Both the position numbers and the translations under genes were made by a program. The notes beneath the pieces are model-generated. The model saw nothing but the letters and a program-made list of their open reading frames with translations. It was not told where the DNA came from and did no database searches. A stretch of DNA of 63,357 bases from Actinomycetes bacterium (lineage in GTDB: Bacteria; Planctomycetota; Phycisphaerae; JAACET01): assembly GCA_030614915.1 (NCBI GenBank), contig JAUXAG010000013.1, positions 1 through 63,357 of the forward strand. Reading direction: 5' to 3'. Positions 18,896-39,509 of this stretch are shown one piece after another. Position 1 is the stretch's first letter. Every line of letters begins with the position of its first letter.

Positions 18896-19681
18896 ATGAG
18901 CAAGACGGAGGCTGCTGCAGTGGAGAAATTGGCACGGCGGTGGGGAGCGGCGAGCGATGTGGGCAAAGTGCGAGATGATAACGAGGACAGCCTGGTGACC
19001 GAGGCTGAGCTGGGACTGTTCCTGGTTTCCGATGGGATGGGCGGACACAGGGGAGGGGCCCTGGCCTCGAAGATTGTAGCCGAAGATTTGCCGGTGATGA
19101 TTGAGACGCGGTTGGCGAAGCTGAGAGGGCAGAGCGTAAGGGCGATCCGCTCGATGCTGAAGCGGACTATCGCCGAGCAGAACCGACAACTCCAAATGGA
19201 AGGGACAAGCGAAGCTGGATATAAGGGGATGGGGGCAACGGTTGTGGTGGCTTTGCTGCGGGATGGGCGAGCATATGCAGCTAACATGGGCGACAGCAGG
19301 CTGTATCTTTTCCGCAAAGGCAGACTTTCACAGCGGTCCAGAGATCATTCGGTGGTGTCGAGCCTGCTGCGGCGAGGACAGATAGATGCCGAAGAAGCCC
19401 AGAACCATGATGCCCAGGGACAGATTACGCGCTATGTGGGTATGGAAGAAGAAGGCCAACCTTATGTGAGAAGCTTTATGCTCAAAGAAGGCGACCGGCT
19501 GCTGCTGTGTACGGACGGGCTGACGGATGCGATAAGCGATAAGGCTATTGCCAAGATACTCAGGGAGCAGGCTGATCCGCAGGCGGCGTGCGAGGCCCTG
19601 GTGCGTGCGGCTAACACGGCTGGGGGTCATGATAATGTTACAACGATAATTGTTAATTGGCTGGAGTCCGAGCAGCATTGA
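18896..19681 (+). CDS. PP2C-family Ser/Thr protein phosphatase
   Basis: A 261-residue soluble phosphatase of the bacterial Stp type. Metal-binding motifs are all present: DVGKVRDDNEDSL near residue 21, SDGMGGHRGG near 45, MGDSRLYL near 131, CTDGLTDAI near 205 and GGHDNVTTI near 246. It removes phosphate from Ser/Thr residues, probably reversing the kinase encoded at 15755. Its stop overlaps the TTG start of the following lipoprotein gene, indicating one transcript. Confidence 0.93.
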   Translation: MSKTEAAAVEKLARRWGAASDVGKVRDDNEDSLVTEAELGLFLVSDGMGGHRGGALASKIVAEDLPVMIETRLAKLRGQSVRAIRSMLKRTIAEQNRQLQMEGTSEAGYKGMGATVVVALLRDGRAYAANMGDSRLYLFRKGRLSQRSRDHSVVSSLLRRGQIDAEEAQNHDAQGQITRYVGMEEEGQPYVRSFMLKEGDRLLLCTDGLTDAISDKAIAKILREQADPQAACEALVRAANTAGGHDNVTTIIVNWLESEQH

Positions 19682-29035: not shown

Positions 29036-29281
29036 GGATATCCTCCGGAAAAGGTAAGCAACAAATAGACAAGCCAGCCGGGCCGGACTAAGTAGGCCAA
29101 AGGCCGATTCTCATGCTAAAGTCCTGCCATTTTGCGCGCCAGGGCGGCCAAAGCAAGAGTTTTTCGAGTGTTTTTTTTGCCGCAGCAACAGCCGGACCAA
29201 GCTATCGTGATGGCTATGCTTGGGCAGATAGACTAGAATAAACTCTCGAGTAGGGCAGATAAGGATGGAAAATTGGAGAAA

Positions 29282-30367
29282 ATGGGCGTGCAAAAAAGAA
29301 TACGAAAAGGGGCGTTCACGCTGTGGATTGGGCTAACTCTGGTATGTCTGTTCGGAGCGGGGTGTTCTGTCAGACTGGTGAGCGAAGAGAATCTCAAGGA
29401 CAATCCCAATGTACGTCTTATTGAGTCGGATGAGAAAGCAGTTGTCCTCGAGTTCAACGAAGAAGATGGGCAGAAGACTATCAAGAGTGTGAGATATGTG
29501 GGTACGTCTGTTGAGCTGGAGAAGCCCTGCCGGGTGAGGTATGAAAGGTTTTATTGGGATTTTCTCGATCTGATTGCCGTTCCGGGGCGACTACCGAATG
29601 GAAAAACCTACACGGTGTGGATTGATACGGGGTATGCCGGCCCGGTAATGACAAACGGAATCACCATAATCGAGAACGATTTAGCGATATATCCTCTGGG
29701 GCGGAATCTCAGAAAGGAATTTGTCGGCGTTTGTCATTTGCCTCGATTGGAAATCGGGCAAGCGATAATCACAAATCCGCCGTGCGAGTATTTGCAGATA
29801 CGTTGGCAATGCGATGTCCTGGGATTAGCCTTGTGGAAACAGAAAGGGGCTGTTGTTGGACTTGAGCTATTGAAGCAGTTCTCATATGTTTCTTTTGATA
29901 ATATCAACAAGGAAATGGAATTGTCGCTGGAGGAACCTTTTGAGCCGAGGCAAGCGAATAAATGGCAGTCTTATCCGCTCAAGATCGAGAAAGACGAGTC
30001 AGGGGACTCTAGACTGATGGTGGATATTCCAGTGGGCGGGGAGAATCTTCATATCATGTTTGATACTTGCGGTCGGTACGGGATGGTGGTAGGGCCTGAA
30101 CTGTGGAAGAAGATTTCCGCCAAATCAGGGAAGGTGAAAGTGCGGAAATCAAGGCTGGCCACGGGGTTTTTGGGCTGGGTGGAGTGTCGCAGGGCCAAAG
30201 TGGCCCAGCTTGATGTGGCGGGGACGGAGATAAAAAACGCTGAGGTAATCATCCTGGATAAGGACAGCCCTTATCTGGCGGGCGAAGGATACATCAGTAT
30301 GAAATACTTCGAGAAATCGGTGGTAGTTCTCGATTTCAAGCGGAATCTGATGTGGGTAAAGCAGTAA
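29282..30367 (+). CDS. Lipoprotein with two retropepsin-like aspartate motifs
   Basis: A 361-residue lipoprotein with lipobox LFGAGC (Cys28). The first lobe has VWIDTGYAGPVMT with Asp115-Thr-Gly in the style of retropepsin-like proteases. The second lobe repeats the pattern as LHIMFDTCGRYGMVVG, with Gly replaced by Cys. The two halves probably form a pseudo-dimer as in aspartic proteases. Whether the enzyme is active is uncertain because of that substitution. The start may be the ATG at 29282 or the GTG at 29288; GGAG lies just upstream. It would face the periplasm. Confidence 0.65.
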   Translation: MGVQKRIRKGAFTLWIGLTLVCLFGAGCSVRLVSEENLKDNPNVRLIESDEKAVVLEFNEEDGQKTIKSVRYVGTSVELEKPCRVRYERFYWDFLDLIAVPGRLPNGKTYTVWIDTGYAGPVMTNGITIIENDLAIYPLGRNLRKEFVGVCHLPRLEIGQAIITNPPCEYLQIRWQCDVLGLALWKQKGAVVGLELLKQFSYVSFDNINKEMELSLEEPFEPRQANKWQSYPLKIEKDESGDSRLMVDIPVGGENLHIMFDTCGRYGMVVGPELWKKISAKSGKVKVRKSRLATGFLGWVECRRAKVAQLDVAGTEIKNAEVIILDKDSPYLAGEGYISMKYFEKSVVVLDFKRNLMWVKQ

Positions 30368-30816: not shown

Positions 30817-31206
30817 ATGAGTGCGGACAGAGCGAGAAAAATCAAAGTAGGCTGCCTGGTCGGAGGATGGCTGTTGTGCGTCTGCTGGACAGTAGTGCCG
30901 GGCGGTTGCGGCTGGCTAGTAAGTGGTGATTATGTGAAGAATATCTCCGCGTCCGAGCCGGAAGTGGCCACCGAGGCAATGAACAAGGCGGCCCAGAATA
31001 AGAGCCGACGGGCTATAGTGCCGCTGGTGAAGCGCTTGTACGATGAGGACTCGGCGATTCGACTCTCGGCGATCAGGGCTTTGCAGAGTATAACCGGAGA
31101 AGATATGGGCTACCGCAGCTATGAGCCTGAGGTCAAGCGAGTGGCGGCTATCAAGCGCTGGGAAGCCTGGCTGGTACAAGAAGGACTCCTAAGTGGGCAA
31201 GAATAA
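30817..31206 (+). CDS. Small lipoprotein with a HEAT-like helical repeat
   Basis: A 129-residue protein with lipobox VVPGGC and a helical body. The segment SRRAIVPLVKRLYDEDSAIRLSAIRALQSITGED is a HEAT-type repeat, usually a protein-binding element. The remaining C-terminus is short and charged. It starts the block that leads to the Mla genes and overlaps the following RsbW-like gene if that gene uses its GTG start, so the two are likely co-transcribed. Function unknown. Confidence 0.75.
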   Translation: MSADRARKIKVGCLVGGWLLCVCWTVVPGGCGWLVSGDYVKNISASEPEVATEAMNKAAQNKSRRAIVPLVKRLYDEDSAIRLSAIRALQSITGEDMGYRSYEPEVKRVAAIKRWEAWLVQEGLLSGQE

Positions 31207-31651
31207 CATGGGACGTCGTGAAAATCTGAGTATCCATTCGAACCCGGTAGAACTTCGCCAAGTGCGATCGGCAATAGAGGCTGGAGGCGCCCGGGTGGGT
31301 TTCAACAAGAAAGATTGCCATGCGATAGCCCTGGCGGTGGATGAGGCCCTGGCCAACGTCATTAAGCACGCCTACAGCGGTGCCCAAGACAAGAAAATCG
31401 AGATTGAGATTGAAGAGCTAAACGAAGAGATTAAACAACAAGGTTTGAAGATAAATATCCGGGATTTCGGCAAGGCGGTGGAGATATCGAAGATCAAAGG
31501 GCGCGAGCTGACGGATATACGACCGGGGGGTCTGGGTGTGCATATAAGGCGCAAGGTGATGGACGAAGTGGTCTTTGAATGTCCCCCGAGCGGCGGAACC
31601 CTTCTGCAAATGGTGAAATATCGGCGTAATGAACAGAAAAGGAAGGGATAG
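31193..31651 (+). CDS. RsbW/SpoIIAB-like anti-sigma Ser/Thr kinase
   Basis: A 152-residue HATPase_c-type protein. The N box is VDEALANVIKHAY near residue 70, the G1-type motif is INIRDFGK near 106, and GGLGVHIRRKVMDEV near 129 is the G2 region; all fit the anti-sigma kinase family rather than sensor kinases. A GTG start at 31193 follows AAGGAC; an ATG at 31208 is the alternative. The next gene encodes a STAS protein, the usual phosphorylation target of such kinases. No sigma-B-like gene is in the window, so the output partner is open. Confidence 0.88.
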   Translation: MGKNNMGRRENLSIHSNPVELRQVRSAIEAGGARVGFNKKDCHAIALAVDEALANVIKHAYSGAQDKKIEIEIEELNEEIKQQGLKINIRDFGKAVEISKIKGRELTDIRPGGLGVHIRRKVMDEVVFECPPSGGTLLQMVKYRRNEQKRKG

Positions 31652-31689
31652 GAGGCTCAAGGTAGTTCAGCGGTAGTTGGAGAAAGAAA

Positions 31690-32052
31690 ATGCCCGCGGC
31701 AGAACGAAGCAGTTCAGATGATATAGTCAAACAAGTTCGAGAGTTGTCCGAGGCGGTGGCGGTGGACATCAGCGGGGATGTAGACCTGCACCGTTCACCG
31801 GCCCTGCGAGAGACGCTGGCGAAATTAATAGATGCCAATCCCGCCCGGCTGGTGCTGAACCTGAGCGAAGTGGGATATATGGACTCCTCGGGGGTGGCGA
31901 CCCTGGTGGAGGCCCTGCAGCGAATCCAGCGGAAACAGGGACGACTTCTGCTTCACTCGCTGAGCCCGCGAGTTCAGAGTATCTTCGAGATAGCCCGGCT
32001 GGAAAGCATATTCGAGATATATCCTTCTGAAGACGAGGCCCTGAGGGCATAA
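31690..32052 (+). CDS. STAS-domain protein (anti-anti-sigma or MlaB-like)
   Basis: A 120-residue STAS domain with the phosphorylatable-serine motif in YMDSSGVATLVEAL (Ser at about 64). The gene sits between an RsbW-like kinase and mlaE. STAS proteins play two relevant roles: as RsbV-type anti-anti-sigma factors, controlled by such kinases, and as MlaB, which binds the ATPase of the Mla lipid transporter. The intact DSSG word and the kinase upstream favour the first, and the mlaE gene four bases downstream favours the second. Both may be combined here. Confidence 0.8.
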   Translation: MPAAERSSSDDIVKQVRELSEAVAVDISGDVDLHRSPALRETLAKLIDANPARLVLNLSEVGYMDSSGVATLVEALQRIQRKQGRLLLHSLSPRVQSIFEIARLESIFEIYPSEDEALRA

Positions 32053-32056
32053 GAAC

Positions 32057-32917
32057 GTGGCACAAGCAAGTAATGAATTGGCCGAGAGGCGGCCCCCGGC
32101 GGGTATACGCTGGACGCAGCAGTTGGGCCAGGCAGTGATCAACGCGGCGTTGTTTACAGGAGGGATAAGCATTCTGCTGGGGCAGACGCTGAACTGGAGC
32201 CTGCGGAGTCTGGTGGGGCGGAAGGGGAAACTAGCCCGGGCCCGAGTGCTCAAACAGATGGTACGCGTGGGGGTGCGGAGTATCCCCATTGTTTTGCTGA
32301 TTCAATTCTCTATCGGCTTTATTTTGGCCTTGCAGATGGCCCCGGAGCTGGACCGCTGGGGACAGGTGGAACAGGTGGCCAGTATTAATGCGGTGGCGGG
32401 GTTCAGGGAGCTTGGGCCTTTGATGGCGGGGATAGTGCTGGCGGGGTTTGCGGGGGCGTCGATCGCGGCAGAGCTGGGGACGATGGTAACGACGGAAGAG
32501 ATAGAGGCCCTGCAGGTACAGGCGATAAATCCGGTGCGTTTCCTGGTGGTGCCTCGGGTGCTGGCGACGGTGATTATGATGGTATGCCTGACGGTGCTGG
32601 CGGACTTGACGCTGGTGTTCGGAGGTTTCGTAACCGGAGTATTGCAGTTGGATATCAGCGCCTCGCGTTATTATCATGTGACGCTGGAGACTTTGACTAA
32701 TAAGGGTTTTTTGACCGGTTTGATCAAGGGGGGGTTGTTTGGTTTGCTGATCAGCTTGATTGCTTGTTATCAGGGGTTGTCGGTCAAGCCGGCTGAGGGC
32801 TCGGAAGGGGTGGGACGAGCGACGACGGTAACGGTGGTCAGGTCGATTGTGGCTTTGGTGGTGACGGATGGGATATTGACGGCGCTGTTTTACGCGTACG
32901 GATTCTTTGATAAATAA
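32057..32917 (+). CDS. mlaE: MlaE-family ABC transporter permease
   Basis: A 286-residue permease of the MlaE type with five or six membrane helices. Family signatures are GFRELGPLMAGIVLAGFAGASIAAELGTM and EEIEALQVQAINPVRFLVVPR near 125-175. It forms the membrane part of the transporter that moves phospholipids between the two membranes. A GTG start at 32057 lies four bases after the STAS stop. The ATPase and MCE genes follow, so the operon is complete for the inner membrane complex. Confidence 0.93.
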   Translation: MAQASNELAERRPPAGIRWTQQLGQAVINAALFTGGISILLGQTLNWSLRSLVGRKGKLARARVLKQMVRVGVRSIPIVLLIQFSIGFILALQMAPELDRWGQVEQVASINAVAGFRELGPLMAGIVLAGFAGASIAAELGTMVTTEEIEALQVQAINPVRFLVVPRVLATVIMMVCLTVLADLTLVFGGFVTGVLQLDISASRYYHVTLETLTNKGFLTGLIKGGLFGLLISLIACYQGLSVKPAEGSEGVGRATTVTVVRSIVALVVTDGILTALFYAYGFFDK

Positions 32918-32925
32918 GAGCTGAG

Positions 32926-33771
32926 ATGAACGAAGCTGAACCGATTATTAAGGTCGAAAGACTGATCAAGCGTTTTGGGGAGCAGACGGTGCTGAATGGG
33001 ATCGATCTGGAGGTATACCCCGGCGAGACCATGGTGATCATGGGCGGTTCGGGGTGCGGCAAAAGCACGCTGCTGCGGATAATGATCGGTTCAATCAAAC
33101 CGACGGCGGGAAAGGTGATGGTGCTGGGTGAGAACCTGGCGGAGCTGAACGAAAGGCTGCTGGATGAGCTGCGCAAGCGAATCGGGATACTGTTCCAATC
33201 GGGGGCCCTGTTCAACAGCATGACCGTGGGGGAGAATGTGGCTTTGCCGCTGCGCGAACATACGAAACTGCATCCGGACGTGATTGATCTGCAGGTTACG
33301 ATCAAGCTGAACCAGGTGTCGCTGCTTCATGCCCGCCAGAAGATGCCGGCCCAGATATCTGGGGGGATGAAGAAGCGGGCGGGTCTGGCCAGGGCCTTGG
33401 CAATGGACCCGCAGATACTGTTCTACGACGAGCCCAGTGCGGGTCTGGACCCGGTAACCTCAAGTCAAATTGACGAATTGATTATAAAGCTGTCCAAAGG
33501 GCTGGGGGTGACCTCGGTGGTGGTTACGCACGAGATGGATTCGGCCTTTCGAATAGCCGATCGTATATGTATGCTCAATCGTGGCAAAGTGCTGAAGGTG
33601 GGCAAGCGAGAGGAGTTCGAGGCCCTGCGGGATGCTGAAAACGGCCAGGGCTTCGGCGAGGATGAACTGCTGATGCGGCAGTTTCTTCGAGGCGAAGCTG
33701 AGGGTCCGATAAGCAGCGAAGAAGATAAAGGCGGATTTTTCCAAGAGCTGGGGATATTCTCTCTGCGGTGA
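32926..33771 (+). CDS. mlaF: MlaF-family ABC transporter ATP-binding protein
   Basis: A 281-residue ATPase with Walker A GGSGCGKSTLL near 38, the Q-loop GILFQSGALFNSMTVGENV, the signature ISGGMKKRAGLARAL near 143, Walker B ILFYDEPSAGLDPV and the H-loop VVTHEMDS. The sequence between Q-loop and signature is of the MlaF/Mkl type. It pairs with MlaE. The C-terminal 45 residues, acidic and Gly-rich, exceed the E. coli protein. The nine-base gap to mlaE suggests coupling. Confidence 0.93.
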   Translation: MNEAEPIIKVERLIKRFGEQTVLNGIDLEVYPGETMVIMGGSGCGKSTLLRIMIGSIKPTAGKVMVLGENLAELNERLLDELRKRIGILFQSGALFNSMTVGENVALPLREHTKLHPDVIDLQVTIKLNQVSLLHARQKMPAQISGGMKKRAGLARALAMDPQILFYDEPSAGLDPVTSSQIDELIIKLSKGLGVTSVVVTHEMDSAFRIADRICMLNRGKVLKVGKREEFEALRDAENGQGFGEDELLMRQFLRGEAEGPISSEEDKGGFFQELGIFSLR

Positions 33772-33774
33772 GAT

Positions 33775-33865
33775 TAGAGCCCGGAGGTGTGAGTAATCAA
33801 GCCTCCCTTCGGGTCTGAGCCTCAGGGTCGAAGACAAGTCTCACGCCTCAAGCCTGAGTAATGGG
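33775..33865. repeat. Intergenic repeat between mlaF and mlaD
   Basis: Words such as AAGCCTCCCTTCGG, TCTGAGCCTCAGGG and CTCACGCCTCAAGCCTGAG belong to the GGCTTGAGG-type module seen at 6538, 17102 and 47886. It separates mlaD from the otherwise tightly packed operon. Confidence 0.5.
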
Positions 33866-33874
33866 AGCAGGACG

Positions 33875-34867
33875 GTGAACAAAGATCAGGCAAATGAACT
33901 GAAGGTGGGGATTGTGGTGCTTCTCTGCCTGGGTCTGGGTCTGGGTGTAGCCCTGAGACTATCGAACTGGCAGCAGTGGCTGGAGCCGAAGAACACACTG
34001 ACCTTCAAGGTTCCGTACCAGGCGGGGATGGGGGGGATCAAGGCGGGCTGGCCGGTGACCATCGGGGGGGTGGCGGTGGGCAGTGTACGAGAAATCTCGT
34101 CGGTGCGTGGGCCGATCGACGAGCGGGATACAGCGGAGGAGCCGGCTTTAGAGGCTGAGGAATCGCAGACGATAGCCGAACAAGAGACGCAAAGCCCAGC
34201 CCAAGGGTCTGAAGATATTACTAAGGTAACGACCTATTCCTACTTCAAGTTCACGGTGCCGAGTAAATATGAGCTGTACGAAGACTGTGAGCTTACGCCG
34301 GCTAGCCAATTGATCGGCGGGGCTGGGGAGCTGATGATCACCAACTTCGGCAGCAAAGGCAAGCTGCTGCAAGACGGCGACGAAGTATTCCGCAAGAGCC
34401 TAGGTGGAAGCAGCATTGCCGCGGTAATGGATACTGTTCAGGCGGCGATGGCCAACGTTCATAAGATTACAGAAGATTTTAAGGATGTTTCGGCCAAGGC
34501 TCGCACGACCATTAACCAGGCCAAACCAGATTTGGAAAGGACATTCGCCAACGTGCGGGCGGCTTCGGAGGAGATGAAACTGGGAATGCGGGAGATTCGC
34601 TGGAATCCCTGGCGGCTGTTGCATAATCCCAGTAACAGGGAACTGCGGACGCAGAACTTGTTGACATCGGCGAGGGCTTTCAGCAGCGGAGCCAGCGACG
34701 TCGTTGCAGCAGTGGATAAGCTGGAAGGAATGCTAGAAGCTCGTAAGGGTAGCCCGGCTGGCAAGGATGAAGAATTGATACAAGCAGTTGAAGAGCTTAC
34801 GGCAACAATGGATAAGTTCAGCGTGGCAGCAGAGACGTTCTTCAAACGGCTGGGGAAAGGGAAGTGA
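33875..34867 (+). CDS. mlaD: MCE-domain protein of the Mla transporter (MlaD-like)
   Basis: A 330-residue protein with one N-terminal membrane helix (about 12-30) and an MCE domain (VPYQAGMGGIKAGWPVTIGGVAVGSVREI, later SQLIGGAGELMITNFGSKGKLL). The domain is split by an acidic insert of about 40 residues (80-120). The C-terminal half is helical, with a stretch that could form a coiled coil (210-325), more like Mycobacterium or chloroplast MCE proteins than the short E. coli MlaD. GTG start at 33875 with AGGGAGCAGG ahead. It should form the periplasmic lipid-binding ring. Confidence 0.9.
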   Translation: MNKDQANELKVGIVVLLCLGLGLGVALRLSNWQQWLEPKNTLTFKVPYQAGMGGIKAGWPVTIGGVAVGSVREISSVRGPIDERDTAEEPALEAEESQTIAEQETQSPAQGSEDITKVTTYSYFKFTVPSKYELYEDCELTPASQLIGGAGELMITNFGSKGKLLQDGDEVFRKSLGGSSIAAVMDTVQAAMANVHKITEDFKDVSAKARTTINQAKPDLERTFANVRAASEEMKLGMREIRWNPWRLLHNPSNRELRTQNLLTSARAFSSGASDVVAAVDKLEGMLEARKGSPAGKDEELIQAVEELTATMDKFSVAAETFFKRLGKGK

Positions 34868-38576: not shown

Positions 38577-39509
38577 TCAAAGGGCGATGGGCTTTGGGGT
38601 GCTTGGGGGCCGGGTTTTCCAGCGGCGGTGGACCCAGAGATACTGCTCGGGGTGGCGACGAGCGACCCGCTCGATGGCCTTGGTATAAGTGGCCGTAATC
38701 CACCGGACTGCGTCGTCACGATCTCGCCACTGATGGGGGTAGATGATCTGCTCAACACTGAATTCGTATTTGAAGGCGTCGCCCAGACGAGTAGCGGCAG
38801 TGACCACAACAGGAGCATCAAAGGAGCGGGCTAACAAAGCGATGCTGCGAAAGGTGGAGGCAGGTCGGCCAAAGAAATCGACAAACAGGCCCCGATCTCC
38901 GGCATTCTGGTCGGCGAGAAAACAGACAATCTGGCCGGCATCGAGAACGTCGCTAACGGCGGAGGTGGCGCCCTTTTTGGTGATGATGCGTTGGCCGGTC
39001 TTCTCCCGCATGCCGAATACGTAGCGATGCAAGTGGGGGTTTGGTAAATGACGGGCTACGGAATAGGAAGTAAAGCCCATAACGGCTAAGACAAAGCTGA
39101 GCAATTCCCAGTTTCCATAGTGTCCGGAGAGCATAATTACGGGTCGGTTCTGGAGGAGCAAGTGCAGGGTTTCGGCCATGTTCTTGAGGCGAATGTAACG
39201 AAAGACGGTATTGATCTTCAGCAATCGCGGGGCATAGACGACCTCGATGATCAACATACCCAGATGGCGGAGACAGTCCCGAGCAGTACGTCTAATCCAG
39301 CGGTCGGGAACGGATGGGCCGTAGATCAAACGCAGATTGTCCAAGGCCCGGTGCTTCCAGCGGGGATAAATGAGATAGGTAATGTCGCCGAGGAGTCGGC
39401 CAACGGCCAAGGCGGCATCAATGGGCAGCATCTGCATGCACATTCCCAGAGTGCGAATGGACAAATAGGTGAGCAAATCGGTGAGCTTGTTTCGAGGTTT
39501 TTCGGCCAT
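38577..39509 (-). CDS. Lipid A biosynthesis acyltransferase (LpxL/HtrB family)
   Basis: A 310-residue membrane-bound acyltransferase with the HX4E active-site motif HYGNWE at 130-135 and conserved LADQNAGDRGLFVDFFGRPAS near 200. The N-terminal helix (about 20-45) anchors it to the inner membrane. Such enzymes add the secondary acyl chains to lipid A. Start ATG at 39509. It converges with the lptD-like gene. No Kdo transferase is nearby, so which acyl chain it adds cannot be told. Confidence 0.9.
   Translation of the reverse strand: MAEKPRNKLTDLLTYLSIRTLGMCMQMLPIDAALAVGRLLGDITYLIYPRWKHRALDNLRLIYGPSVPDRWIRRTARDCLRHLGMLIIEVVYAPRLLKINTVFRYIRLKNMAETLHLLLQNRPVIMLSGHYGNWELLSFVLAVMGFTSYSVARHLPNPHLHRYVFGMREKTGQRIITKKGATSAVSDVLDAGQIVCFLADQNAGDRGLFVDFFGRPASTFRSIALLARSFDAPVVVTAATRLGDAFKYEFSVEQIIYPHQWRDRDDAVRWITATYTKAIERVARRHPEQYLWVHRRWKTRPPSTPKPIAL

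Follow-up and report, generated by a model that had tools for sequence, protein, structure and literature searches.

The lipid ATP-binding cassette (ABC) transporter MlaFEDB of Escherichia coli contains the STAS protein MlaB; the ATPase MlaF binds it in part through an extended C terminus that includes Tyr261, Leu265 and Leu266 (PMC7367683). Thr52 of MlaB has a central place in the contact with MlaF, and the phosphomimetic exchange T52E lowers MlaF binding (PMC7367683). Phosphorylation of Thr52 has been proposed as an open possibility in E. coli, where the kinase is not known and phosphorylation has not been observed (PMC5016091, PMC7367683). A phylogenomic study of Mla maps MlaA-F, and the word kinase is absent from its main text. 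Here, an mla operon with its own kinase gene is described from contig JAUXAG010000013.1 of assembly GCA_030614915.1 (63,357 nucleotides, positions 1 to 63,357, hereafter the window), which is deposited as Actinomycetes bacterium and placed by GTDB in Planctomycetota; Phycisphaerae; JAACET01. Six plus-strand genes at positions 30817-34867 encode a HEAT lipoprotein, a kinase, a STAS protein, MlaE, MlaF and an MCE protein. It is likely that the cytoplasmic STAS subunit of this MlaFED(B) lipid ABC transporter is under the control of a partner-switching kinase of its own. Slightly less firmly, we favour the wider view that a complete and old phosphatase-kinase-STAS switch, present in several phyla, acts directly on the ABC lipid transporter and not on a sigma factor. 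Such a switch would be the first phosphorylation control dedicated to a bacterial MCE/Mla system, and its kinase would be of the type that the proposed phosphorylation of MlaB still lacks.

First, the conservation of the gene order was determined within the class. A search for the kinase in 61 genomes gave matches in 36. The order HEAT-kinase-STAS was found in 30/30 of the best same-class matches, which came from many families, followed by MlaE and often MlaF where the locus reached that far (the loci were 3.4 kb long, and in four of them MlaE was not scored inside the locus). Class genomes without a kinase match still had MlaE, and kinase-less members with a close MlaE orthologue showed STAS-MlaE-MlaF, mostly together with the HEAT gene. 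On this pattern of gene content, the kinase is an old operon member missing from some lineages, with the STAS gene staying with the transporter. In a Planctomycetota-wide sample, the kinase lay beside mlaE in 21/119 genomes.

Second, a scan of species genomes yielded 80 named loci, 73 of which had kinase-STAS-MlaE; the seven exceptions (L095, L103, L120, L129, L146, L148, L156) were contig ends or had no mlaE nearby. Beyond Planctomycetota, kinase-STAS-MlaE-MlaF was retained in metagenome-assembled genomes (MAGs) of KSB1, Calditrichota, Desulfobacterota, Acidobacteriota and UBP3. The kinase family was present in 57/59 Calditrichota/KSB1 genomes, and 29/30 of the best loci there had kinase-STAS-MlaE, the 30th being truncated by a contig end. 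The kinase was found beside mlaE in 2/118 Desulfobacterota and 2/119 Acidobacteriota genomes. The HEAT lipoprotein gene was not found at kinase-STAS-mlaE loci outside Planctomycetota. Thus, the kinase-STAS-mla arrangement recurs in at least four bacterial phyla. Two further labels were not counted as extra phyla: the kinase of L113 (labelled Cyanobacteria) nests among Phycisphaerae, and L086 (labelled Actinomycetota) matches a contig of G002, which belongs to the same genus as the window. Both MAGs are probably mislabelled, as kinase and operon look planctomycetal. The conserved order in class loci, named loci and other phyla rules out chance or a local oddity, and it answers the proposal of the first-pass annotation of the window, made from the letters alone, to look for the same order in other planctomycetes.

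The residues that phosphorylation would require were conserved on both sides of the putative kinase-substrate pair. In an alignment of 23 kinases, the GHKL ATP-site residues E51, N55, D91, G112, G113 and G115 were invariant, as was R25. The invariant motifs (N box ExxxN, G1 Asp, G2 GGLG) align with the ATP site of RsbW (6m36) and SpoIIAB (1til), and E51, N55, D91, GGxG and R25 were retained by all members of the kinase family in the same-class and named loci. R25 shares an alignment column with SpoIIAB Arg20, a position that contacts both sigma and SpoIIAA. The kinase stayed under the NCBIfam equivalog cut-offs, with 58.8 bits for RsbW (cut-off 145) and 46.7 bits for SpoIIAB (cut-off 135); judged from these scores, it is homologous to the RsbW/SpoIIAB family and is not the equivalog itself. 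In the STAS protein, the DSSG motif lies within YMDSSG (residues 63-68), and D65-S66-S67 was invariant in the STAS proteins of 23 relatives, as expected of an Asp-Ser phosphosite of the RsbV/SpoIIAA type. Ser66 aligns with the SpoIIAA phosphosite (1th8_B), a column in which 1tid_B has Ala, and by family it would be the counterpart of MlaB Thr52. Ser or Thr occupied the phosphosite in 111/111 kinase-linked STAS rows, which represent about 104 distinct genomes since some were taken twice.

A phosphatase gene often completes the cassette. In 20/30 Calditrichota/KSB1 loci, a GAF-SpoIIE gene (PF01590 and PF07228) lies directly upstream of the kinase gene, and the same holds for L124, L140, L150, L151, L157, L176 and L222. 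This upstream position was seen in Calditrichota/KSB1, Desulfobacterota, UBP3 and one Acidobacteriota locus. Thus, outside Planctomycetota the phosphatase-kinase-STAS cassette is commonly complete, with the ABC lipid transporter taking the place in which one would look for a sigma factor. The genome of the window carries a related GAF-SpoIIE protein elsewhere (G000:C1:103439), which is the best candidate for a phosphatase acting in trans. The PP2C gene at window positions 18896-19681 was rejected as the cognate phosphatase, since it is PP2C/PrpC-like, lies about 11 kb upstream and does not resemble the GAF-SpoIIE proteins found in other phyla.

Contact between kinase and STAS protein was modelled with AlphaFold2. 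For a same-genus locus (L010), the stop between the two genes was read through in frame, and the fusion was predicted from 53 aligned rows. The 285-residue model reached a mean predicted local distance difference test score (pLDDT) of 87.9 and a predicted template modelling score (pTM) of 0.83, with a disordered linker. A control of similar size, the HEAT lipoprotein-kinase fusion from L009, had a pTM of 0.52. Judged by pTM, i.e., by relative placement and not by inspection of the interface itself, kinase and STAS protein are predicted to dock confidently in silico, which is the outcome of a structure prediction that the first-pass annotation had suggested for this pair. Natural kinase-STAS gene fusions, which would be Rosetta-stone evidence, were not found among the loci examined. 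Since docking is predicted and binding alone could compete with MlaF, the kinase might be a scaffold or stoichiometric inhibitor that sequesters the STAS protein without phosphotransfer. This is very improbable, however, given that several phyla have retained both the ATP-site residues and the Ser/Thr and that the frequent phosphatase gene in the operon is hard to explain without phosphorylation.

The STAS protein is also linked to MlaF. MlaF tails in STAS-bearing operons showed RQFLxGxxxGP and/or a YxxDLL-like end, 46/50 by pattern and the other 4 by eye. Both tail motifs were absent in 10/10 STAS-less MlaF paralogues, which are mostly from one class and so not independent; L056, scripted as STAS-less, is cut at the contig start and stands outside these ten. 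Docking of the STAS protein on MlaF in the manner of MlaB is supported by these tails. They also bear on the possibility that the kinase phosphorylates the STAS protein for the benefit of another partner, with the mla genes as merely co-transcribed neighbours. Loci L103 and L120, in which STAS and a kinase family member lie away from mlaE, and L148, which lacks STAS, would fit such an output. Yet the STAS gene directly precedes mlaE in an order kept across phyla, it remains with mlaE where the kinase is absent, and the MlaF tail tracks its presence, so that we regard a different partner as a poor prospect.

A further explanation concerns sigma factors. Kinase and STAS protein could act as an ordinary pair of anti-sigma and anti-anti-sigma factor, in which case the operon would link the state of the transporter, with STAS either free or MlaF-bound, to a sigma factor encoded elsewhere in the genome. 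Both proteins belong to the RsbW/RsbV families, including the Arg20 position, and genes for sigma-70-family proteins of about 270-280 amino acids are present in the genome. However, a sigma gene occurred near the operon in only 2/80 loci, both times on the opposite strand, the genome has no SigB/F/G match above the curated cut-off, and sigma control could fall to a second RsbW-type kinase (L001), which lies between two STAS genes. In addition, a tree of 68 kinases (short search without bootstrap) placed all 49 Mla-linked kinases and four others behind one branch with a Shimodaira-Hasegawa-like approximate likelihood ratio test (SH-aLRT) value of 96, so that the Mla-linked kinases form a family separate from the remaining RsbW-type kinases. 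Membership of kinase and STAS in a sigma-factor operon was rejected, as no conserved sigma gene lies nearby, and the feedback to a sigma factor that the first-pass annotation had offered as its alternative finds no support in gene context. Coupling to a sigma factor is thus unlikely, although less so than the two explanations above.

Other settings of RsbW-type kinases were seen as well. L001 (G000:C35:200276-203641) lies in the window's genome between two STAS genes, one of which has its phosphosite motif changed to FIVSMG. Calditrichota/KSB1 genomes have up to four kinase homologues each, some in multi-domain open frames of about 1200-1400 amino acids. In L148 (4758-6677), a kinase family member adjoins a gene resembling flavin adenine dinucleotide (FAD)-dependent oxidoreductases, not STAS-mlaE.

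For direct control of the transporter by the kinase, the following mechanism is proposed. Unphosphorylated STAS protein would bind MlaF like MlaB and keep the ATPase in an assembled, active state. The RsbW-family kinase would bind the same helical face of the STAS protein and phosphorylate Ser66 with ATP. If SpoIIAB-SpoIIAA and MlaF-MlaB are a guide, this one face, with Ser66 at its centre, would be contested by kinase and MlaF. Phosphorylation of Ser66 would detach or disable MlaF, and transport would stop. Transport would be restored by a GAF-SpoIIE (RsbU-type) PP2C phosphatase; its gene belongs to the operon in Calditrichota/KSB1, Desulfobacterota and some Acidobacteriota, and Planctomycetota would supply the enzyme in trans. 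The periplasmic HEAT lipoprotein may be an envelope sensor, which is a guess. With the ATP site and phosphosite kept, a PP2C gene in the operon in several phyla and docking predicted, the switching of lipid transport by Ser phosphorylation, which the first-pass annotation had raised, is the best-supported reading; what we infer from this arrangement is phosphotransfer itself, a consequent loss of binding or activity of MlaF, the switch direction, the trans-acting phosphatase and the signal.

Several observations weigh against a simple switch of this kind. The Planctomycetota operon has no phosphatase gene. The STAS protein is nearer to RsbV/SpoIIAA than to E. coli MlaB: it scored 90 bits, over the cut-off, with the anti-sigma-factor antagonist model TIGR00377 and only 22.1 bits with the MlaB model NF033618 (cut-off 90), thus falling short of the MlaB equivalog while occupying the MlaB-like position beside mlaE/mlaF. 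In E. coli, T52A abolishes ATPase activity while MlaFEB stays assembled (PMC5016091); therefore, control of binding may not be the only role of the site. Since T52E weakens MlaF binding and T52A eliminates ATPase activity, the site controls activity, and the details may differ. Among STAS proteins in operons without a kinase gene, Ser/Thr at the phosphosite was kept in 13/18 and lost in five, all from one family (f5). Families f11 and f14 retain the Ser in such operons; therefore, the residue has a role besides that of kinase substrate, and strict coevolution of kinase and Ser was only partly supported. Kinase and Ser are lost together in a single lineage, which makes weak support for their coevolution. 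In the f5 proteins (L063, L067, L068, L069, L075), RFGGAG, RFHGAG or CFSGAC replaces the phosphosite, and they are apparently MlaB proteins independent of phosphorylation.

The coordinates of the operon are given in Table 1. Open reading frames and family matches confirmed the order HEAT lipoprotein-kinase-STAS (DSSG)-mlaE-mlaF-mlaD read in the first-pass annotation, and the coordinates reproduced its gaps of 38 bases (kinase-STAS) and 4 bases (STAS-mlaE). The alternative kinase start GTG 31193 would overlap the HEAT gene, and ATG 31208 sits just past the HEAT stop; the latter is the more likely start because the Met of MGRRENL is retained in L009/L010. The closest PDB entries to the ABC ATPase were MlaF chains from P. 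aeruginosa, A. baumannii and E. coli, by which it is a genuine MlaF. The operon thus has the MlaFED make-up of MlaE permease, MlaF ATPase and MCE protein, the MCE assignment being weak by score (TIGR00996 and TIGR04430 under curated cut-offs). Downstream lie an MGMT gene (opposite strand) and, directly behind the mla operon, an LptD-like outer-membrane protein gene (PF04453; 35605-38472), followed by a lipid A acyltransferase-family gene (38577-39509, other strand); the last two form an envelope-biogenesis neighbourhood. A lipoprotein-like open reading frame at 29273-30367 has a weak match to retropepsin-like aspartyl protease (PF13650).

Table 1. Features of the kinase-STAS-mla operon (window coordinates).
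Feature	Position	Strand	Evidence
HEAT-repeat lipoprotein, operon gene 1 in Planctomycetota	30817..31206	+	lipobox-like VVPGGC; HEAT_2 E 6e-5, under gathering score
RsbW/SpoIIAB-type GHKL serine kinase (predicted)	31208..31651	+	HATPase_c_2 8e-22; PDB relatives RsbW 6m36, SpoIIAB 1til/1l0o/1th8
STAS protein, MlaB position, putative phosphosite Ser66 in YMDSSG	31690..32052	+	STAS 6e-24; ant_ant_sig 7e-26
Ser66 codon of STAS gene (putative phosphosite)	31885..31887	+	aligned with 1th8_B, 1tid_B
MlaE permease	32057..32917	+	PF02405 3e-65
MlaF ATPase with C-terminal tail of MlaB-docking type (RQFLRGEAEGP...FFQEL)	32926..33771	+	ABC_tran 2e-32
MCE/MlaD-like protein	33875..34867	+	TIGR00996 2e-9, TIGR04430 6e-7, both below curated cut-off; operon position

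A literature search, with subscription papers and preprints outside its reach, returned no paper pairing RsbW and MlaE, SpoIIE and MlaE, or RsbV and MlaB. All parts belong to known families; what is new is their combination, in which a lipid ABC transporter is the probable output of a partner switch. If true, partner switching extends from transcription control to the direct control of a membrane transporter, and bacteria may turn membrane-lipid traffic on and off by phosphorylation. With a kinase, and in other phyla a phosphatase, encoded beside the STAS subunit, three or four purified proteins would suffice to test the question of Mla phosphorylation.

STAS proteins under GHKL serine kinases with outputs beyond direct sigma sequestration are also found in SypE/SypA of Vibrio fischeri and in the stressosome (RsbT/RsbS/RsbR), which, unlike the window operon, are not known to be linked to a transporter. 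RsbU/RsbW/RsbV and SpoIIE/SpoIIAB/SpoIIAA share with it the same three families, the catalytic residues, the phosphosite and the gene adjacency, docking being predicted here; the neighbourhood differs by an ABC lipid transporter in place of the sigma factor, and the kinases form their own family. E. coli MlaFEDB likewise has MlaE, MlaF with an MlaB-docking tail, MCE and STAS proteins encoded together. In comparison, the window operon has a different gene order, lacks mlaC and encodes an RsbV-like STAS protein with DSSG where MlaB has Thr52; it adds an RsbW-type kinase, to which other phyla also add a SpoIIE phosphatase.

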